Notes under the pieces: model-generated
Told to the model about the DNA's origin: nothing
The model's input: the letters and a program-made list of their open reading frames with translations, nothing else
Databases searched by the model: none
NCBI RefSeq assembly: GCF_017640745.1
Contig: NZ_JAEPQA010000007.1
Span: 62,001 to 126,000, forward strand
DNA length: 64,000 nucleotides
Source of the DNA: Nisaea sp.
Lineage (GTDB): Bacteria > Pseudomonadota > Alphaproteobacteria > Thalassobaculales > Thalassobaculaceae
Reading direction: 5' to 3'
In this document: positions 3,216 through 36,518 of the stretch, one piece after another
Position numbering within the stretch: the stretch's first letter is position 1
Layout: each line of letters starts with the position of its first letter
Made by a program: the position numbers and the translations under genes

Positions 3216-3892
3216 GCGACGATACCGGTCTCGACAAACGCGAGGCGGAGCGCGACCGGGTGCTGGACAGCATCCTCCCGCACGTCATGTTCGACGGCTG
3301 GAGCCGCAAGGCGCTGAAGCACGGCGCCGAGGATGCCAGCATTTCGGCCTCGGAGCTCGACCGGCTGTTCCCGGCGGGCGTCGGCGATTGCATCGGGCAT
3401 TTTCTCGACCGCGCCGACCGCGAGATGGTGCGGGAATTCCAGCGCCGCAATCCGTCGCAGATGAAGATCCGCGACCGGATCGCCGCCGCAGTCCGTATCC
3501 GTCTCGAGCAGGCCGAGCCGCATAAGGACGCGGTGCGCCGCACGCTGGCCTATATGGCGGTTCCGGGGCAGGGCGGTCTCGGCACCCGCAGCCTCTACCG
3601 GACCGTGGATGCGATCTGGAAGGCGGCGGGCGATACCTCGACCGATTACAATTTCTATACCAAGCGCGGGCTGCTCGCGGCGGTCTACAGTTCGACCCTG
3701 CTGTTCTGGCTGAACGACAGTTCCGAGGACCATGTCGAGACCTGGGACTTCCTCGACCGGCGGATCCGCAACGTCATGGCCATACCGAAGCTGACCGGGC
3801 GTCTGAAGGAAGCGGCCGAAAAGGTAAAGAACCCGTTCGAGGCGCTGAAGACCTGCGCCCCGAAACGGCGTCCTTTCGCCGGCGCGCGGTAG
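3212..3892 (+). CDS. COQ9 family ubiquinone biosynthesis protein
   Basis: This 226-residue protein matches the COQ9 family, helical TetR-like-fold proteins that bind isoprenoid lipid and help the ubiquinone hydroxylation steps at the membrane. The family pattern is visible: HVMFDGWSRKAL near residue 24, a helix around PAGVGDCIGHFLDRAD, and the C-terminal KRGLLAAVYSSTLLFWLND with a hydrophobic face thought to meet the membrane. It overlaps the def stop by four bases. It converges on the amidase with a 3-base gap. Proteobacterial COQ9 homologues are less studied than the mitochondrial protein, so the precise role is inferred. Confidence 0.88.
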   Translation: MSDDTGLDKREAERDRVLDSILPHVMFDGWSRKALKHGAEDASISASELDRLFPAGVGDCIGHFLDRADREMVREFQRRNPSQMKIRDRIAAAVRIRLEQAEPHKDAVRRTLAYMAVPGQGGLGTRSLYRTVDAIWKAAGDTSTDYNFYTKRGLLAAVYSSTLLFWLNDSSEDHVETWDFLDRRIRNVMAIPKLTGRLKEAAEKVKNPFEALKTCAPKRRPFAGAR

Positions 3893-27370: not shown

Positions 27371-27805
27371 TCAGCCGGCGGATGTCACCTTGCTGGCGAG
27401 TGCCTTGTAGGTCCCTTCGCCCATCGCGATGAGAGTTCCCTCGGGACTGTAGACCTCGCAGCTGGCGAAGAAGACCGAGCGGCCGCCGCCGCGGCGCTTG
27501 GCCGTCGCGTAGATCCGGCCCTGCTTGGTCGTGCCCATGAAACTCGTCGTGAGAGAGAGGGTCAGGGCACGTTTCTTTTCCGAGCCTTCCGGAACCCAGA
27601 CGCCGCAATAGCCGCCGACCGCGTCGATCATCGTCGCGACCACGCCGCCATGCAGGATGCCGCTGCGGTTGAGGTGCTTTTCCGTCAGGTCGAGTTCGAG
27701 TTTCGCGTAGCCGTCGGCCCATTCGGTCAGGCGGAAACCGATATCGGCGTTGAAGCCCAGCATGGTTTCGAGGGACGGGGCGGTCACGTCGGCCGATTGA
27801 CTCAT
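27371..27805 (-). CDS. PaaI family hotdog-fold thioesterase
   Basis: The 144-residue protein has the hotdog thioesterase pattern, with LNRSGILHGGVVATMIDAVGG around residues 45-65, where the asparagine and HGG loop bind the acyl-CoA. LSLTTSFMGTTKQGRI and GRSVFFASCEVYSPEG complete the sheet. It would hydrolyse an acyl- or aryl-CoA in the cytosol. I chose the ATG at 27805. It diverges from imuA, and the LexA box of imuA is only 17 bases from this start codon, so SOS control is possible. Confidence 0.85.
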   Translation of the reverse strand: MSQSADVTAPSLETMLGFNADIGFRLTEWADGYAKLELDLTEKHLNRSGILHGGVVATMIDAVGGYCGVWVPEGSEKKRALTLSLTTSFMGTTKQGRIYATAKRRGGGRSVFFASCEVYSPEGTLIAMGEGTYKALASKVTSAG

Positions 27806-27821
27806 GAGCAGGGATATCCTA

Positions 27822-27836
27822 GAACAAATCAAGAAC
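27822..27836. promoter_or_regulatory. LexA box upstream of imuA
   Basis: GAAC-AAATCAA-GAAC is an exact GAAC-N7-GAAC alphaproteobacterial LexA site, 14 bases before the imuA start. It differs from the imuB box by one base in 15. Confidence 0.9.
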
Positions 27837-27850
27837 ATTCAGGTGATTGG

Positions 27851-28666
27851 ATGGGCGATCCTAAGCACAGGGACGAAACAGGGCAACGGGCCGATTTGGC
27901 ATCTCTGCGTGCGCGGGTCCGGGCCATTGAGCGCGGCGGCGCCGAGGAGGGGCGGGGGACGCGCTTTCCGCTCGGCCATGCCGCGCTGGACGGTCATCTG
28001 GACGGCGGTCTGCCCGCGGGCCGGGTGCACGAGCTTGTCGGCGAGACCCGCAGCGAGCTGCGCGACGGCAGCGTCTTCGGCTTCGCGGCCGCTTTGCTGA
28101 CACGTCTGCTGGCCTCTCCGGCGGCCTGCCGGGGCGGGGAGATCCTCTGGTGCGCGCGGGATGCCAACATGTTCGGCGGCACGCCCTACGGCTGGGGCCT
28201 GAAGGTCCTCGGCCTCGACCCGGAGCGCGTACTGTTCGTCCGCGCGCGGGACGAGGCGGACCGGCTCTGGGCGATGGAGGAGGGGCTGCGCTGCGGCGGG
28301 CTCGCCGCCGTCGTCGCGGAACTCGGTCCGGCGCGTCCGGGAGAGGCCGGGAGGGTGGCGGAGCGGCGCCTGCAGCTCGCTGCCGAGGCGAGCGGTGTCA
28401 CCGGCTTCCTGCTCCGTCCACTTGCGGGCACGGTCACGACCGGGGCGGCGGAGAGCCGCTGGCGCATCTCTGCCGCCCCCTCGGGCGGGAGTCTCGAACC
28501 CTCCTGGTCGGTTTCGCTCGAGCGTCTGCGCGGTGGCAGGTCCGGTGCCTGGCAGCTGCTCTGGGACGCATGTGGCGGCCGATTCCGCGACGCCGAAGAG
28601 TTCGTTCCGGTGCCGGAAGAGGTGCCGGAAACGAGGCCCGCGGCGGGACGAAGCGCTGCCGCGTAA
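27851..28666 (+). CDS. imuA: ImuA, RecA-like mutasome protein
   Basis: The 271-residue protein is ImuA, a RecA-related partner that works with ImuB and DnaE2 in damage-induced translesion synthesis. FPLGHAALDGHLDGGLPAGRVHELVG at about residues 40-65 is the family hallmark; LWCARDANMFGGTPYGWGL and LRCGGLAAVVAELG follow in the places of RecA core strands. A full Walker A is not visible, which is normal for ImuA. AGGTG lies just before the ATG at 27851, and a perfect LexA box overlaps the promoter region. Unlike common imuA-imuB-dnaE2 operons, it is followed by a PilZ-domain gene. Confidence 0.88.
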   Translation: MGDPKHRDETGQRADLASLRARVRAIERGGAEEGRGTRFPLGHAALDGHLDGGLPAGRVHELVGETRSELRDGSVFGFAAALLTRLLASPAACRGGEILWCARDANMFGGTPYGWGLKVLGLDPERVLFVRARDEADRLWAMEEGLRCGGLAAVVAELGPARPGEAGRVAERRLQLAAEASGVTGFLLRPLAGTVTTGAAESRWRISAAPSGGSLEPSWSVSLERLRGGRSGAWQLLWDACGGRFRDAEEFVPVPEEVPETRPAAGRSAAA

Positions 28667-28796
28667 CCCCATATGTACATTTGGCTTCATCTGCCGTAAC
28701 TATTGATTCTGTGCTGAAAAATGCTGTGCGGCTGTTTCCTTTCCGGGATGTGGCAAAGATCATCGCCAGCAGTTTTCTCGGCGGCGATGGTGTAGA

Positions 28797-28846
28797 CTGT
28801 CGCCGAGGCAAACGGAGGCTGGGGAATGAGTGCTGTCGCCGAGGCA
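28797..28846. repeat. 14-bp direct repeat flanking the PilZ gene start
   Basis: CTGTCGCCGAGGCA occurs at 28797-28810 and again at 28833-28846, 36 bases apart, bracketing the ribosome site and start codon. It probably marks a small past duplication. Confidence 0.6.
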
Positions 28847-29308
28847 GCGATCGGGCAGGAGAGGCGGAGGCACGGACGCTGGTCCGTCAGCGGTGCCTAT
28901 GCCGCCGTGCAGGGCCGCAAGATTCCGCTCATCGATATTTCCATCGGCGGCTTTTTCGCCCGTCTGCCCGACGAGGGCGGGCATGTGAGCTCGCCGATTG
29001 AGGGGACGATCTACTGGCGCGGCGTGCGCGAGACGATCGAGTTTTCCTTCGGCGCGGATATCGTGCGACGGCCGGACGAGGGGGGGCGTTTTGCCGCCCA
29101 GTTCCATTCGCTTGAGGGCGAGTCCATCGATACCCTGCTGCGCTTTCTCAGCGCCATCGAGGCCGAGCGGCGCGAGCGGATCGAGCGCCAGCAGCGCGAT
29201 GCCAGACGCCGGATCCTGCTGCGCAAGCTGGCGCTCTGGGGCGTCGTCGGGGGCAGTCTCCTCGCCGCGCTCTGGCTGGTCTGGCAGTTCGGCCTGAGCG
29301 GCGCCTGA
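28826..29308 (+). CDS. PilZ-domain protein with C-terminal membrane helix
   Basis: The 160-residue protein carries a PilZ domain, the common c-di-GMP receptor: RRRHGRW at 13-19 supplies the RxxxR motif and DISIGG at 37-42 the (D/N)xSxxG motif. A long arginine-rich helix follows (ERRERIERQQRDARRR), then one membrane helix near residues 136-155 (ALWGVVGGSLLAALWLVWQF). The ligand motifs look complete. GGAGG lies seven bases before the ATG. It sits between imuA and imuB with 159 and 102 base gaps and no LexA box of its own in the 159-base leader, so its link to SOS mutagenesis is uncertain. Confidence 0.8.
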   Translation: MSAVAEAAIGQERRRHGRWSVSGAYAAVQGRKIPLIDISIGGFFARLPDEGGHVSSPIEGTIYWRGVRETIEFSFGADIVRRPDEGGRFAAQFHSLEGESIDTLLRFLSAIEAERRERIERQQRDARRRILLRKLALWGVVGGSLLAALWLVWQFGLSGA

Positions 29309-29363
29309 AAATCCCGTCTTTCCAGAGGTTTGAGCACGCGTTTCAATGCTGTGTTGACAATAA

Positions 29364-29378
29364 GAACAAAACAAGAAC
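29364..29378. promoter_or_regulatory. LexA box upstream of imuB-dnaE2
   Basis: GAAC-AAAACAA-GAAC is a perfect alphaproteobacterial LexA site 32 bases before imuB. A TTGACA -35 box lies at 29354-29359, so LexA would sit directly downstream of it on the promoter. A further GTTC half-site is at 29384-29387. Confidence 0.92.
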
Positions 29379-29410
29379 ATCATGTTCTGGCTCATAGCGG
29401 GAGACGGATA

Positions 29411-31027
29411 ATGGCACGGCGATTCCTCTATCTCTACATTCCGGATTTTTCCTTCGACTGGCGCCGCCGGGAGGCGGACGGGAATACTGCGGCTGTAATG
29501 GCAGGCGATGTCCGGCCCGCGGTTCTGACCCGGCGCCTCGTCGGCACGGAGACCGTCGCGGCGGTCAATCAGGCGGCGGCGCTCCAGGGGATCGCGGTCG
29601 GCCGTCCGCTGGCCGATGCCCGCGCCATGGTTCCGGATCTTGGCGTGACGGAGGCGGATCCCGCGGCGGACCGCAAGCGGCTGGAACGCCTGGCCGCCTG
29701 GTGCCAGCGCTACACGCCGATGGTCGCCGTCGACAGCACGGCCGCGCCCTTCGCGGGCGACGGCGGCAGCGCCGGCCTTACGCTCGATATCACCGGATGT
29801 GCCCATCTCTTTCGCCGCCAGGGCGCGGCGGATCTCGCAACGGAGGAGCAGGCGCTCGGGCGCGATTGCCTCGCAGCCCTGAACCGGCTCGGCTTCAGTG
29901 CACGGCTCGCGGTGGCGGACGCCCCTCTCGCCGCCCGGGCCGTCGCCCGCTTCTCCGCCCCCTTGCTTACTCTGGTGCCGGAAGGAAAGCTCCGGCTGGC
30001 CCTCGAGGCACTGCCGGTGGCGGCGCTCGGACTTTCTCCGGCGACCGTGGAGGCGCTGGACCGGGTCGGGCTGCGCCGTATCGCGCAACTGCTCGACCAG
30101 CCGCGGGCCCCGCTCGCCAGCCGGTTCGGCATGGGGCTGATCGAGGCGCTCGACCGCGCCCTCGGGGACCGGGCAACGGCGCTCGACATGAAGCTGCCGG
30201 AGGAGCCGTTCCAGGAACGCATCGCCTTCGCCGAACCGATCGCGCTCCGCGAGGATCTGGAGGGCGCCGCACGGCGCACGCTCGGTGCGCTTTGCCGCCG
30301 TCTGGAGCGCGAACAGGCCGGCGCCCGGCGGGTGCGCCTGCGCTTCTTCCGGGTCGACGGGGAGGTGCTGCAGGTCAGCGCCGGGACCAGTCGGGCCTGC
30401 CGCGACGCAGACACGCTGTTCCGGCTGCTGGCGCAGCATTTCGACAAGCTCGATCCGGGTTTCGGCATCGACATGGTGCTGGCGGAGATGCTCGAGGGCG
30501 ACCGCGCGGAAGGCGTGCAGGCGGCTCTCGGCAGCACAGAGATGCGGGACCGGGACGCGGTCATCGATCTCGGCGACCGGCTCGCGAACCGGCTGGGCGC
30601 CGATGCGGTGCACCGCCTGCAACCGGTCGAGAGCCATCTGCCCGAACGGGCCGAGAAGCGCAGCGTGGGCCGGCCGGGCCGCAAGGCGCTGACCTGGACC
30701 AATGTGCGTCCTCCGGCACCGGAGCGGGCGGCCCGTCCGGTGCGCCTGATGCGGCGTCCGGAGCCGGTCGAGGCGACGGCGCTGCTGCCGGATCATCCGC
30801 CGGCCCGCTTCCGCTGGCGCGGTGCGGACTATCGCGTCGCCCATGCCGCGGGACCGGAACGGTTGGCGCCGGAATGGTGGCGCGACGGCAGCGACGATGC
30901 CTCGATGTCGACCCGGGACTATTTCCGCGTCGAGGACGGGGACGGCCGCCGGTTCTGGCTCTACCGGGACGGGCTCGCCGAACGGGGCGAGGCGCCGGGC
31001 TGGTTCCTGCACGGGATCTTCTCCTGA
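29411..31027 (+). CDS. imuB: ImuB, Y-family polymerase-like mutasome protein
   Basis: The 538-residue protein is ImuB, the hub of the ImuA-ImuB-DnaE2 mutasome that links to the beta clamp. It keeps the Y-family layout (palm, fingers, HhH thumb near VEALDRVGLRRIAQLLDQP around residue 215, little finger) but the catalytic acidic residues are lost: the N-terminal motif reads LYLYIPDFSFDW rather than the metal-binding DMDAFF type. The extended tail (LTWTNVRPP, MSTRDYFRVEDGDGRRFWLYRDG) is typical of ImuB. GGGAGACGG precedes the ATG at 29411 and a LexA box lies upstream. dnaE2 follows after 31 bases. Confidence 0.92.
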   Translation: MARRFLYLYIPDFSFDWRRREADGNTAAVMAGDVRPAVLTRRLVGTETVAAVNQAAALQGIAVGRPLADARAMVPDLGVTEADPAADRKRLERLAAWCQRYTPMVAVDSTAAPFAGDGGSAGLTLDITGCAHLFRRQGAADLATEEQALGRDCLAALNRLGFSARLAVADAPLAARAVARFSAPLLTLVPEGKLRLALEALPVAALGLSPATVEALDRVGLRRIAQLLDQPRAPLASRFGMGLIEALDRALGDRATALDMKLPEEPFQERIAFAEPIALREDLEGAARRTLGALCRRLEREQAGARRVRLRFFRVDGEVLQVSAGTSRACRDADTLFRLLAQHFDKLDPGFGIDMVLAEMLEGDRAEGVQAALGSTEMRDRDAVIDLGDRLANRLGADAVHRLQPVESHLPERAEKRSVGRPGRKALTWTNVRPPAPERAARPVRLMRRPEPVEATALLPDHPPARFRWRGADYRVAHAAGPERLAPEWWRDGSDDASMSTRDYFRVEDGDGRRFWLYRDGLAERGEAPGWFLHGIFS

Positions 31028-31058
31028 TCCCGACCGGCCAGAGATCCGCGATGGCGCC

Positions 31059-34000
31059 ATGCAGGGCTATGCCGAACTCCAGGTCACGAGCAATTTCAGT
31101 TTTCTCCGGGGTGCCTCGCACCCGGAAGAACTGGTGGAGATGGCGGCCCGGCTCGGCCATGCCGCTATCGCCATCGCCGACCGCAACAGTCTCGCCGGTG
31201 TGGTCCGCGCCCATATCGCGGCCAGAAACCACGGCATAAGGCTGCTGATCGGCGCCCGGCTGGTGCTGGAGGAGGGCGAGGAACTGCTCGCCTTCCCGCA
31301 CGACCGTGCCGCCTATGCCCGGCTCTCCCGGATGCTCAGCCTCGGCAAACGCCGGGCGGAAAAGGGCGCCTGCCTGCTCCGCCGCGCCGATGTGGTGGAC
31401 TATGCCGAAGGACACGATCTGGTTCTGATCCCGCCGAAGGATCTGGCCGCTATCCGTCCGGAAGATCTCCGCTTCTGGGCGGAGAGCTTCCCCGGCCGCG
31501 TCTCGCTCGCCGCCACGCTGCTTTATCACGGGGACGATGCCGGACGACTCCGGCGCCTCGCCGCACTCGCCGCCGCGGCGGAACTGCCATTGGTCGCGAC
31601 CAACGACGTGCATTACCACCTGCCGGAGCGCCGCCCGCTGCAGGACGTGCTGACCTGCATCCGGGAGCATTGCTCGGTGGACGAGGCGGGCTGGCGGCTC
31701 GATGCAAATGCGGAGCGTTACCTGAAACCGCCGGGAGAGATGGCGCGGCTCTTCCGGGACCGGCCGGAGGCGATCGCCCGAACCGTGGAGATCGCCGGGC
31801 GCTGCAGCTTCTCGCTCGACGAGCTGGCTTACGAGTATCCGGACGAGATCTCGCCGGACGGCCGCCCCGTGCAGGAGGAGCTGGAGCTGCGCACTTTCGA
31901 GGGCGCGGGGGAGCGATATCCGGACGGCGTGCCGCCGAAGGTCGAGGCCCAACTCCGTCACGAACTCGGCCTGATCGCGCGGCTGAACTACGCGCCCTAC
32001 TTCCTCACCGTCTACGACATGGTCCGCTTCGCCCGCAGCCAGGACATTCTCTGCCAGGGGCGCGGCTCGGCGGCCAATTCCGCGGTCTGCTACTGCCTCG
32101 GCATCACCGCGGTCGACCCTTCGCGCGCCGATCTGCTGTTTGAGCGTTTCGTCAGCGAGGAGCGCGGCGAGCCACCCGATATCGACGTCGATTTCGAGCA
32201 CGAGCGGCGCGAGGAGGTGATCCAGTACATCTACCGGAAATACGGCCGCGAGCGGGCCGGGCTGGCGGCGACTGTGATCAGCTACCGCTCGCGCAGCGCG
32301 TTGCGCGACGTGGGCAAGGCGATGGGGCTCTCCGAAGACGTCGTCGGCCTGCTCTCCTCCCAGGTCTGGGGCCGGCACGGCGACGCGGTGGCGGACGAGC
32401 GGATCCGCGAGGTGGGGCTCGACCCTGCCGACCGGCGCCTCGCCATGACCATGAACCTCACCCGTCAGCTCATGGGCTTCCCGCGTCATCTCTCCCAGCA
32501 TGTCGGCGGTTTCGTCATCACCCGTGGCCGGCTCGACGAACTGGTGCCGATCGAGAATGCAGCAATGCAGGACCGCACCGTGATCGAATGGGACAAGGAC
32601 GATCTCGATGCGCTCGGCATGCTGAAGGTCGATGTGCTGGCGCTCGGCATGCTCACCTGCGTGAAGAAGGCCTTCGATCTGCTGCAGCGGCATTACGGCA
32701 TCGCCCACGACCTCGCGACCGTTCCGCCGGAGGATCCGGGCGTCTACGACATGCTCTGCCGGGGGGACAGTCTCGGCGTCTTCCAGGTCGAGAGCCGGGC
32801 GCAGATGGCGATGCTGCCGCGGCTCCGCCCCCGCTGCTTCTACGACCTCGTGATCGAGGTGGCGATCGTGCGCCCGGGACCGATCCAGGGCGACATGGTG
32901 CATCCCTATCTCCGCCGCCGCGACGGTATCGAGCCGGTCGAATTCCCATCCGAGGAACTGCGCGGCGTGCTCGGCAAGACCCTCGGTGTGCCGCTCTTCC
33001 AGGAGCAGGCGATGAAGATCGCCATCGTCGCCGCCGGCTTCACCCCGTCGGAAGCGGACAGGCTGCGGCGCGCCATGGCGACCTTCAAGAAGACCGGCCA
33101 GATCGGCCAGTTCCAGGGCAAGATGATCGAGGGCATGGTCGCGCGGAATTACGAGCGCGAGTTCGCCGAGCGCTGCTTCCGGCAGATCGAGGGGTTCGGC
33201 AATTACGGCTTTCCGGAAAGCCATGCCGCCAGCTTCGCGCTCCTCGTCTATGTCTCGAGCTGGTTCAAGCGGCGCTATCCCGCCGTCTTCGCTGCGGCCC
33301 TGCTGAATTCCCAGCCGATGGGCTTCTATGCCCCGGCGCAGATCGTCCGCGACGCGCGCGAGCACGGCGTCACCGTGCTGCCGCCGGACGTGAACCGCAG
33401 CGGCTGGGACTGCGATCTCGAACCTGACGGCAGGGGGGGGCAGGCGCTCCGCCTCGGGCTCCGGCAGATCAAGGGGATGCGGCAGGAGGAGGCGGAGCTG
33501 ATCGTCGCCTGCCGGGGGCGGGGCTACGGCGATCCGGGCGAACTCTGGCGCCGTGCCGGGATCACACCCGCGGTACTGGAGGTGCTGGCGCGCGGCGACG
33601 CCTTCGCCTCCATGGGGCTCGCCCGGCGCGAGGTGTTCTGGGCTGTGCGCGGCCTTGCCCGGGCCGTGACCGGCCCTGTACGGGCCGAACGGGACCGCGA
33701 GGGGCTGCCGCTCTTCCTCGCCGCCGAGGCGCGGGAGCAGAAGCTTTTCACCCCGAGGGAGGCGGCGGTGCTGCTGCCGGAGGCGCCGCTTGGCGAGCAG
33801 GTGGTGGAGGATTACGCCGCGCTCCATCTCTCCCTGAAGGCCCATCCGGTCGCCCTGCTGCGGCCGAGCCTCGACGGCGACGGCTGCATCCGCTGCGAGG
33901 ATCTGGAGCGCACTCGCGACGGGCGCCGGATTCGGCTCGGCGGCCTCGTGCTGGTGCGCCAGCGGCCGGGCACCGCCAAGGGCGTGATCTTCATCACGCT

Positions 34001-34397
34001 GGAGGACGAGAGCGGGGTCGCCAACCTGATCGTCTGGCCGGACAAGTTCGAGGCCTTCCGGCGTATCGTGCTCGGCGCCAAGTTCCTCGGCGTCACCGGC
34101 CTGGTGCAGCGCGAGGGACGGGTGGTGCATGTCGTGGTCGAGAAACTGGAGGACCTGACCTGGCGCCTCGGCTGGCTGACCGACGGGACGGTCGACGAGG
34201 CCGGTTTCAAGGGTGCGATCGCCAATGCCGACGAGGTCGCGCGCGGACAGGAGGATTACCGTCAGAAGCCGCCGCGCCCGAAACTGCCGCCTGCTCCGAA
34301 ACCCAATCCGGAACAGATCAAGCCGTCGCGCCCGCTGCATACCCATCCCCGCAACATGAAGCCGGACCTGCGCGTCGTCAGCCGGGATTTCCACTGA
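31059..34397 (+). CDS. dnaE2: Error-prone DNA polymerase III alpha-type DnaE2 (ImuC)
   Basis: The 1112-residue polymerase is the catalytic part of the mutasome and copies past lesions. It opens with a PHP domain (YAELQVTSNFSFLRGASHPEE), in which several metal ligands are retained. PDIDVDFEHERR at about 373-384 carries two of the catalytic aspartates, and the third lies in the KVDVLALGML segment near 525. PGPIQGDMVHPYLRRR near 605 and an OB domain after residue 960 follow. It shares the imuB promoter and LexA box. The ATG at 31059 gives the normal family N-terminus; the ribosome site is weak, so translation may depend on imuB. Confidence 0.95.
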   Translation: MQGYAELQVTSNFSFLRGASHPEELVEMAARLGHAAIAIADRNSLAGVVRAHIAARNHGIRLLIGARLVLEEGEELLAFPHDRAAYARLSRMLSLGKRRAEKGACLLRRADVVDYAEGHDLVLIPPKDLAAIRPEDLRFWAESFPGRVSLAATLLYHGDDAGRLRRLAALAAAAELPLVATNDVHYHLPERRPLQDVLTCIREHCSVDEAGWRLDANAERYLKPPGEMARLFRDRPEAIARTVEIAGRCSFSLDELAYEYPDEISPDGRPVQEELELRTFEGAGERYPDGVPPKVEAQLRHELGLIARLNYAPYFLTVYDMVRFARSQDILCQGRGSAANSAVCYCLGITAVDPSRADLLFERFVSEERGEPPDIDVDFEHERREEVIQYIYRKYGRERAGLAATVISYRSRSALRDVGKAMGLSEDVVGLLSSQVWGRHGDAVADERIREVGLDPADRRLAMTMNLTRQLMGFPRHLSQHVGGFVITRGRLDELVPIENAAMQDRTVIEWDKDDLDALGMLKVDVLALGMLTCVKKAFDLLQRHYGIAHDLATVPPEDPGVYDMLCRGDSLGVFQVESRAQMAMLPRLRPRCFYDLVIEVAIVRPGPIQGDMVHPYLRRRDGIEPVEFPSEELRGVLGKTLGVPLFQEQAMKIAIVAAGFTPSEADRLRRAMATFKKTGQIGQFQGKMIEGMVARNYEREFAERCFRQIEGFGNYGFPESHAASFALLVYVSSWFKRRYPAVFAAALLNSQPMGFYAPAQIVRDAREHGVTVLPPDVNRSGWDCDLEPDGRGGQALRLGLRQIKGMRQEEAELIVACRGRGYGDPGELWRRAGITPAVLEVLARGDAFASMGLARREVFWAVRGLARAVTGPVRAERDREGLPLFLAAEAREQKLFTPREAAVLLPEAPLGEQVVEDYAALHLSLKAHPVALLRPSLDGDGCIRCEDLERTRDGRRIRLGGLVLVRQRPGTAKGVIFITLEDESGVANLIVWPDKFEAFRRIVLGAKFLGVTGLVQREGRVVHVVVEKLEDLTWRLGWLTDGTVDEAGFKGAIANADEVARGQEDYRQKPPRPKLPPAPKPNPEQIKPSRPLHTHPRNMKPDLRVVSRDFH

Positions 34398-34442
34398 CCA
34401 AGCTTGCCGCTCCGGGCGGGCCGGTGCATCTTCAGCCGCATC

Positions 34443-36518
34443 ATGCTGGACACGTTGCCGGAACGAGAACGCCTTGAAATCGCCCGCCTTTGGCAGCGTG
34501 CGGAACAGCGTCGTGCGGCTGGAGAGCTGGGCGGGTCGGAGTCGGATCTCAAACGTCTTTGCTGCTTCCTGCCGTCGGTTCCCGACATTCTCGTGCGTCA
34601 TGCCGGTGTTCTTGCCGCACTGGCACGCAATCACTGTGCGGCACGCGCCTACGGCCGTGCCGCAGCCCTTCTGCCGGAACAGGATGAACTCGCTCGCGGT
34701 GCCGCCGAATATCACTGGCTCGCCGGAGATCGGGATGGCGCCCTCCGGATGCTCGACCGTTGCCTCAGGCACGCGCCGATGAATGCGGCGGCCTGGCTGA
34801 CGCGCACCCATTTCTGCCGGGACGCGGGCGATCGGGCGGGGGCGGGCCGGGCGCTCCGACGGGCCCTGTTGCTGGTGCCGGAAAACTGGCAGCTCGCCTG
34901 CCAGACCGGGATCGATCTCGCGGATGCCGGGGAGAGTGCGGGTGCCATACGCTGGCAGCGGCGCGCGATGCGCCTCGCTCCGGGGGAACAGCTCCCGCGC
35001 GCCGCACTCTCGGACGCCGTCCGGGGCGGCGTTCCCGACCGGCAGGACAGTCCGCTCCGCCGTGACCTGCTGGGCCTCGTCGAGACATTGACGATCCGGC
35101 CGAGGGGGCTGGTCCGCGCCCTTTCGACCCTGATCCTGCGTGAGCCGACCTGCCTGCGGGCAGAGATGCTGCTTGCGGCGGGCGCGGACGGAGCGCTCAA
35201 GGAAATCTGTGATCTGATCCGGGAAACCGGCCTGCCGCGACTGATGGGCCTTGAGATCCTGCCGGACCAACGCCTCGAAGCTTTTCTGACGGCGTTTCGC
35301 CGGCGTCTGCTCGAAGCATGGGCCGATGGCGGGTTTCCGGACGGTGCGGAGGACATGGTTCAGGCTCTCGCCGCGCATTGCCTGCTGCACGAATACAGTC
35401 TCGCGGAGAGCCCTGCTGAAAAGCAGGTGCGTGCAGGTCTTCGCGTGGCGGCCGTCTCGGGCGATGCTCCCGAGCTGCTGATGCTGCTCGCCTGCTACGA
35501 ACCGGTCGCCGAGCTCTGGACCGGGCGTCCCGCGCTGCCAGAGGGCTGCGCAGCGTTCCGGGACAGACATATCGACTTCCCGCGCCGGGTCCGGGCGGCA
35601 GCCGAGAGCATGGATCGCCTGACGGATCTTTCGCCCGGCGTCTCAGAAGCGGTCGGACGGCAGTATGAGGAAGATCCCTATCCGCGCTGGACCCGCCCGC
35701 CGGCACAAGGCTCGGTGACCTTGCGCGCGCGCCTGCGGGCGCTGGCCCCGAGCCGGGCGGAGGCCTTTGTGGCGGCTCTGGAGACTCCGGACGTGCTGAT
35801 CGCAGGTTGCGGGACCGGTCAGGAGGCCTGCGCCCTTGCCGCCGGCTACCCGGATGCCGCTATCACCGCGGTCGATCTCAGCCGGGCGAGCCTCGGTTAC
35901 GCGCGCTGCAAGGCGGAGGAATTCGGGCTCCGGAACATCCGTTTCGGACAGGCCGACATCCTTAAACTCGCGGAACTGGGAACGGATTTCGATTTCATCG
36001 AGTCGGTGGGCGTGTTGCACCATATGGAGCATCCCGAGGAGGGGCTCGGGGTTCTGGCGTCTCTGCTCCGTCCGGGTGGGGTGATGCATCTCGGTTTTTA
36101 CAGCCGGCGAGGCCGGGTCGCCGTCAATGCCGCGCGCGAGATGATTGCGGAATGGGGGCTGGAGCCGACGCCAGAGGGCATTCGCGACGCCCGCCAGCGC
36201 CTCTTCGCGCTTCGGGAGAGCCGGCCGGATCTCGGCGGTCTTTTCGTCTCGCCGGATTTCTATTCGCGTCCCGCCTGCCGCGACCTGATCTTTCACGTGC
36301 AGGAGCATCAGTACGACGTTCCGGGCCTGCACGCGCTGGTGGAGGGGGCCGGTCTCGAGCTGCTCGGCTTCGAGCTGCAGGCGGACCGGAGGGCGAGTTA
36401 CCGGACGCAGTTTCCTGAAGATGTGGAGGTACGGGACTGGGACAAGGTCGACGCCTTTGAACGTGGCATGCCCTGGGCTTTTTCCGAGATGTACCGTTTC
36501 TGGCTGATCAAGCCCTAG
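34443..36518 (+). CDS. TPR protein with C-terminal SAM-dependent methyltransferase domain
   Basis: The 691-residue protein begins with helical TPR-like repeats (through about residue 190), has a middle helical region, and ends in a class I methyltransferase domain. YEEDPYPRW near residue 408 is a linker seen before such domains. Motif I is VLIAGCGTGQEACALA near 452, motif II ITAVDLSRASLGYA near 475, and motif IV ESVGVLHHMEHPEEGL near 520. The target is unknown; similar TPR-methyltransferases are found in several alphaproteobacteria. It starts at ATG 34443, 46 bases after dnaE2, and overlaps the convergent TetR gene by 11 bases. Confidence 0.8.
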   Translation: MLDTLPERERLEIARLWQRAEQRRAAGELGGSESDLKRLCCFLPSVPDILVRHAGVLAALARNHCAARAYGRAAALLPEQDELARGAAEYHWLAGDRDGALRMLDRCLRHAPMNAAAWLTRTHFCRDAGDRAGAGRALRRALLLVPENWQLACQTGIDLADAGESAGAIRWQRRAMRLAPGEQLPRAALSDAVRGGVPDRQDSPLRRDLLGLVETLTIRPRGLVRALSTLILREPTCLRAEMLLAAGADGALKEICDLIRETGLPRLMGLEILPDQRLEAFLTAFRRRLLEAWADGGFPDGAEDMVQALAAHCLLHEYSLAESPAEKQVRAGLRVAAVSGDAPELLMLLACYEPVAELWTGRPALPEGCAAFRDRHIDFPRRVRAAAESMDRLTDLSPGVSEAVGRQYEEDPYPRWTRPPAQGSVTLRARLRALAPSRAEAFVAALETPDVLIAGCGTGQEACALAAGYPDAAITAVDLSRASLGYARCKAEEFGLRNIRFGQADILKLAELGTDFDFIESVGVLHHMEHPEEGLGVLASLLRPGGVMHLGFYSRRGRVAVNAAREMIAEWGLEPTPEGIRDARQRLFALRESRPDLGGLFVSPDFYSRPACRDLIFHVQEHQYDVPGLHALVEGAGLELLGFELQADRRASYRTQFPEDVEVRDWDKVDAFERGMPWAFSEMYRFWLIKP

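Follow-up and report, generated by a model that had tools for sequence, protein, structure and literature searches.

A PilZ gene behind imuA in a Nisaea mutagenesis cassette that probably forms two LexA-controlled units

Why does a gene for a PilZ protein lie inside an SOS mutagenesis cassette, and why does that cassette carry two LexA boxes? Both questions are raised by a 64,000-nucleotide (nt) stretch of Nisaea sp. DNA (contig NZ_JAEPQA010000007.1, positions 62,001 to 126,000), referred to here as the window. The full set of the imuABC mutagenesis cassette, imuA, imuB and dnaE2, is found at the locus, and the order on the forward strand is LexA box, imuA, pilZ, second LexA box, imuB, dnaE2, with a divergent thioesterase gene on the left. 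The cassette here is not one unbroken operon, as pilZ and the second box split imuA from imuB. We propose that the locus probably consists of two adjacent transcription units, each under LexA control, that descend from a single operon, with pilZ behind the first. The features are as follows.

27371..27805, minus strand: hotdog-fold thioesterase (4HBT, TIGR00369), divergent from imuA
27797..27825, plus strand: likely imuA promoter (TTGACT, 17-nt spacer, TAGAAC), read from sequence
27822..27836, plus strand: LexA box of imuA, GAACAAATCAAGAAC, exact GAACN7GAAC
27851..28666, plus strand: imuA (NCBIfam NF033429 and homology)
28667..28825, plus strand: imuA-pilZ gap, 159 nt, with two conserved blocks
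28826..29308, plus strand: pilZ, 160 amino acids (aa), PilZ domain and C-terminal hydrophobic anchor
29354..29383, plus strand: likely imuB promoter (TTGACA, 18-nt spacer, CATCAT), from a consensus scan
29364..29378, plus strand: LexA box of imuB, GAACAAAACAAGAAC, exact GAACN7GAAC
29411..31027, plus strand: imuB (IMS, IMS_C and DUF6504 domains)
31059..34397, plus strand: dnaE2 (imuC; NF004225, 1437 bits)

A preliminary description of this DNA had placed between imuA and imuB a PilZ gene of 160 residues with RxxxR and DxSxxG motifs and a membrane segment, and before each imu gene a LexA box, the two boxes differing at one base; its coordinates and motifs are right, and both boxes are exact at the positions listed. 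The imuA product matches NF033429 with an E-value of 4.6e-18 and 65.8 bits, below the cut-off of 150, and a Pfam search of it gave no match; position and homology together leave little doubt about its identity. The start of imuB was placed at 29411, 102 nt after the pilZ stop, and not at the first TTG of the open reading frame (29330), because homologues align from 29411.

The preliminary description had made its proposal depend on conservation in related genomes, and such conservation is found: the full gene order, the orientation and a GAACN7GAAC box before both imuA and imuB are kept in 5/5 Nisaea genomes. The bare pattern is weak evidence by itself, with three matches in the window and at least three in 28 of 100 shuffles. 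An early loose LexA pattern was dropped (12 matches, against 13 for its control). The tighter pattern GAACAWNNNNNGAAC gave 13 sites in the 4.5-Mb genome to which the window belongs (genus g1, Nisaea) against 1 for a reversed control, and GAACAAAWCAAGAAC accounts for five of the 13, where about 0.0016 would be expected from plain base composition. The imuA box sequence occurs at three genome positions and the imuB box sequence at two; because both recur elsewhere in the genome, both look like its preferred LexA sequence, and LexA would be expected to bind at each predicted box. The additional sites lie upstream of an mraZ-like gene, next to genes resembling conjugation genes and ahead of a radical-SAM-like gene (all named by eye), and recA is preceded by a related box.

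The two boxes sit differently in their promoters. The imuA box overlaps the second hexamer of the likely imuA promoter, whose -35 is overlapped by the thioesterase start codon, whereas the imuB box lies within the spacer of the likely imuB promoter. From the start of TTGAC to the imuA box there are 25-26 nt in 5/5 Nisaea genomes and in G006, G009, G008, G017, G047 and G048; to the imuB box there are 10 nt in 4/5 Nisaea genomes, G001 having TTGGC there. The setting differs from that of Nisaea in G045, G012 and G021, and no TTGAC lies within 45 nt of the imuA box in G044, G011 and G020. Because it is shared with G047, G048, G008, G017, G006 and G009, the Nisaea imuA promoter setting is probably the old one. 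The thioesterase gene adjoins imuA in all five Nisaea genomes, G006, G047 and G048.

In a family sample of 36 genomes, 20 match the PilZ model and 26 the imuA model (the 20 include weak PilZ-model matches in G010, G018 and G043, which are assigned to neither group below). Seven of the 20 best PilZ matches stand directly behind imuA: the five Nisaea copies and those of G006 and G009, which are metagenome bins of other genera. In these two bins imuA-pilZ lies behind one box, and imuB-dnaE2, which is boxed separately, occupies a different contig and has other neighbours. Ten of the 20 instead have an Iso_dh gene as their neighbour and TauE close by (G005, G007, G008, G016, G017, G024, G045, G046, G047, G048; the neighbour names were Pfam-tested in G005 alone and elsewhere come from BLAST families or from reading by eye). 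The related PilZ genes of genera g2, g4, g5 and g12 come after an Iso_dh gene, with DUF350 and trypsin-like neighbours in g2 and similar genes in g12. imuA and imuB are contiguous, and of the two only imuA is preceded by a box, in G008, G017, G016 (box in opposite orientation), G024, G045, G047 and G048 (with a small gene between imuB and dnaE2); the box scan covered one orientation up to 200 nt from a match, and the G016 and G024 boxes were taken from full site lists. An own box before imuB is present in G006, G009, G018, G014, G011 and G019, three of which (G011, G014, G019) have no PilZ-model match; G021 is the exception, its imuB lacking an exact box. Separate contigs carry imuA and imuB in G006, G009, G011, G012, G019, G020 and G021.

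In an rpoB tree covering 29 genomes, with g2 chosen as the root, genera g1 (Nisaea), g3, g6, g7, g8, g9 and g10 form a group whose inner order is partly resolved, and g2, g4, g12 and g5 fall outside it; G009, with no rpoB match, was placed from the dnaE2+imuB tree and its genus mates. Outside the Nisaea-containing group the cassette is contiguous where present; within it, imuA and imuB are on separate contigs in the seven genomes named above, adjacent in G022 and divided by pilZ in Nisaea. Because the outgroups are contiguous with a single box and have a related PilZ gene at the Iso_dh/TauE locus, it was probably in this clade that the cassette split and PilZ took its place after imuA. The best Iso_dh match in Nisaea, at 54%, lies in a different context and so does not reveal an emptied donor site for PilZ.

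In the history that we propose, an ancestral imuA-imuB-dnaE2 operon with a single promoter would have divided within this clade, imuB-dnaE2 would have acquired a LexA promoter of its own, and a PilZ gene with a tail anchor, long present in the family at another site, would have come behind imuA. The halves imuA-pilZ and imuB-dnaE2 would have stayed side by side in Nisaea and moved apart in sister genera. LexA would repress both units, and damage would free both, so that ImuA, ImuB and DnaE2 could be made together without a shared transcript. PilZ, itself presumably not a subunit of the mutasome, would be transcribed after damage by read-through from the imuA promoter, and the SOS response would then raise a membrane-bound PilZ protein along with the mutasome.

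The pilZ product is most likely a membrane-anchored receptor for cyclic di-GMP (c-di-GMP). It scores 26.7 bits against PF07238, above the gathering cut-off of 22.5, with RxxxR at R14-R18, DxSxxG at D37-G42 and a hydrophobic C-terminal segment at residues 135-153. Such a segment is present in 18/18 PilZ proteins compared and is weakest in G009. All seven imuA-linked copies keep RxxxR and six of them both motifs, DxSxxG being lost in G009. On the beta-barrel fold, a structure model built from 3 sequences is poor, with a predicted local distance difference test score (pLDDT) of 65 and a predicted template modelling score (pTM) of 0.41; its nine best matches among solved structures, the strongest at E 0.013 and none at 0.001, are c-di-GMP-bound PilZ domains from Pseudomonas. 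The genome has 13 GGDEF matches, 12 of them above the cut-off, and c-di-GMP is therefore probably made by this organism. The ratio of nonsynonymous to synonymous substitution rates (dN/dS) is 0.07-0.24 for pilZ in four Nisaea pairs, which indicates purifying selection (imuA, 0.18-0.33; imuB, 0.08-0.17; dnaE2, 0.07-0.11). In G009 the gene looks decayed: its Pfam score is below the cut-off, and an upstream ATG frame is not joined to the PilZ frame. G044 belongs to the same genus as G009; there the stretch after imuA first resembles that of G009 and then diverges, and no PilZ-model match is found behind imuA.

Whether damage would reach pilZ turns on the gap before it. The imuA-pilZ gap is 155-159 nt in 5/5 Nisaea genomes, with the same strand throughout, and holds two blocks conserved in all five, CCCNATATGTACNTTT (28667-28682) and, further downstream, AAAGATCATC. 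Its RNA fold is ordinary (z -0.84). A consensus scan, which also missed the imuA promoter, reported no terminator-like or sigma-70-like site in the 159 nt. Strand, gap length and the scan result speak for read-through, and because no terminator is reported, some read-through into pilZ is likely; the chances that PilZ is SOS-induced in this way appear about even. Going further, it is conceivable, though we hold it only tentatively, that in Nisaea, and in one or more other genera, damage directly induces a membrane-tethered c-di-GMP receptor via imuA read-through, switching on a surface or motility response with mutagenic repair.

Several observations weigh against these proposals. The conserved blocks may be a promoter of pilZ's own, perhaps of another type, and the silence of the scan is weak evidence, as it misses the imuA promoter and shuffles expect 1.3 terminators. 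The imuB+dnaE2 tree fails to resolve g1, g3, g10, the group of g5 with G047/G048, and the remainder. In the PilZ tree a g2 paralogue falls among the imuA-linked genes, so that the tree leaves a one-clade origin unproven; a single clade for these genes is not rejected by the approximately unbiased test (p-AU 0.48). The order of events is complicated by G022, in which imuA and imuB are contiguous although its genus mate G013 falls in the clade. Ten of the 26 imuA-bearing family genomes, several of them incomplete, have no PilZ-model match. Lastly, G005 and G007 carry the PilZ gene with no imuA or imuB match at all, from which it follows that the basic role of PilZ would not be bound to the SOS response; such relatives suggest a role independent of the mutasome.

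The last point also favours the strongest alternative, namely that PilZ is a neutral tenant transcribed from a promoter of its own within the 159 nt that precede it, standing between two SOS units without being damage-induced. The gap of 155-159 nt with its conserved blocks fits this explanation, as does the loss or decay of PilZ in relatives that retain imuA. Against it, the (weak) scan reported neither a sigma-70-like site nor a terminator, and PilZ remains behind imuA in G006 and G009 although imuB is elsewhere. We regard a neutral tenant as a serious possibility, yet short of an even chance. A far less probable alternative makes PilZ a working partner of ImuA, with c-di-GMP gating the mutasome via the membrane-bound protein. 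The linkage of imuA and pilZ in three genera, two of them without adjacent imuB, would fit; however, PilZ looks decayed in G009 and is unmatched in G044 while both retain imuA, and none of 60 imuA loci sampled across the class (below) has a PilZ match. ImuA does not need PilZ, because the gene decays in G009 and is unmatched in those ten family genomes, and PilZ as a necessary partner was rejected on these missing or decayed copies. Weakest of all is the preliminary description's suggestion that one box was copied from the other, taken as a recent copying of the imuA box before imuB at PilZ insertion: although the two 15-mers in the window are one base apart, we reject it as very improbable, since both occur elsewhere in the genome at unrelated loci, their flanks are not shared, the distance from -35 to box is 25-26 nt against 10 nt, the boxes differ at three positions in G001 and G003, and imuB is boxed in G011, G014 and G019 with no PilZ-model match there. 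That the insertion forced a duplication of the box is likewise too simple, because what a separate imuB box accompanies is the splitting of the cassette, whether PilZ is present or not.

A wider alphaproteobacterial sample places the two-unit arrangement in context. Of its 385 genomes, 26 have a match to the PilZ model and 170 to that of imuA. Among the matches listed, PilZ and imuA are close together only in Nisaea G000 and G003 and in G128, a statement that excludes the PilZ-positive G334, G348 and G411, whose imuA position is absent from those matches. G128 was considered as a similar case and set aside as unrelated, its PilZ-model match lying about 1.2 kb from imuA, on the opposite strand and beyond two intervening genes. 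imuA loci were read in the best 60 of 167 genomes outside the family with imuA, G128 apart. In 53 of the 60, imuB begins within 270 nt after imuA (by profile hidden Markov model edges, with G288 judged by reading), which bears out the earlier statement that these genes are usually one compact operon. Three loci have no imuB on the stretch examined, and none has a PilZ-model match. The remaining four (G033, G177, G355, G035) have opposite-strand genes between imuA and a boxed imuB; a box precedes imuB in these and in G182, five of the 60. Splitting of the cassette with a second box therefore recurs in the class, and a PilZ tenant is unseen elsewhere in the 60-locus sample. In G033, G177 and G355 (L227, L229, L243) the intervening genes are two small lipoprotein-like ones, with the box between them and imuB.

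Further observations concern the same genes in relatives and the surroundings of the locus. In sister genera the imuB LexA box lies within the first codons (L096, L165, L099, L174 and L178, of G009, G018, G014, G011 and G019): ATG or GTG is directly followed by AGAACAAA....GAAC, giving an in-frame (M/V)RT(K/N)xE by eye. This suggests an operator inside the imuB coding start and perhaps a leaderless imuB mRNA; the window has this frame open too, with ATA in place of ATG. A weak PilZ-model match (E 1.3e-4) lies in G018 (L165; G018:C220, about 3300-3560), on the imuB strand some 2.3 kb upstream of that gene and separated from it by two others; it is a short open frame, seemingly without the C-terminal anchor. 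In G021 and G012 (L093, L095) a gene for 189 aa overlaps the imuA end and may be a further tenant of that unit; the G021 product has weak cupin and cysteine-dioxygenase matches below the cut-off. Downstream of dnaE2, before a TetR gene, a tetratricopeptide repeat (TPR)-methyltransferase gene at 34404-36518 looks lineage-specific, because it has no BLAST relative in the other loci compared, including four other Nisaea loci. Elsewhere in the genome, a GAACAAATCAAGAAC box (G000:C15:81990-82004) lies about 390 nt upstream of the mraZ-like gene, which is followed by an rsmH-like gene (by eye); if functional, this box would link the SOS response to the division cluster.

If the two-unit reading with read-through is true, the locus provides a simple wiring between the SOS response and c-di-GMP signalling. 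It would also show how a mutagenesis operon breaks up, with a LexA box retained by each half and an unrelated gene taking up a place after the first, and the family would offer a before-and-after series for that breakup.

Divided cassettes whose parts have SOS boxes of their own have been described before. According to a review, many alphaproteobacteria have a single imuABC operon, nearly all other configurations exist, even three separate loci each with an SOS box, and Deinococcus deserti has a hypothetical gene between imuY and imuC (PMC3901139). The PilZ tenant seems to be the new part, as no paper treating imuA, imuB and dnaE2 together with PilZ was found in a search of an open-access library. 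Compared with the LexA-controlled imuA-imuB-dnaE2 cassette, Nisaea has all three genes, in order and with LexA boxes, but carries a same-strand PilZ gene between imuA and imuB. The loci of G033, G177, G355 and G035 resemble it in having a boxed imuB separated from imuA by other genes; however, those genes (lipoprotein-like or RidA-like, by eye) are on the opposite strand, where no read-through from imuA is possible. The PilZ protein most resembles the PilZ domain of Alg44 (4rt0/4rt1/4xrn) in motifs, strand pattern and best structure and sequence matches, but it is a stand-alone protein with a C-terminal anchor, and the scores are weak (Foldseek E 0.013, sequence E 0.02). The closest regulatory parallel is in Dinoroseobacter shibae, where an in silico prediction puts a LexA site ahead of a gene for a c-di-GMP phosphodiesterase (PMC6473078). 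That gene encodes a turnover enzyme and not a receptor and is not part of an imu cassette, and the same paper found no PilZ gene in D. shibae (PMC6473078), whereas in Nisaea a probable c-di-GMP receptor stands within the imu cassette itself.

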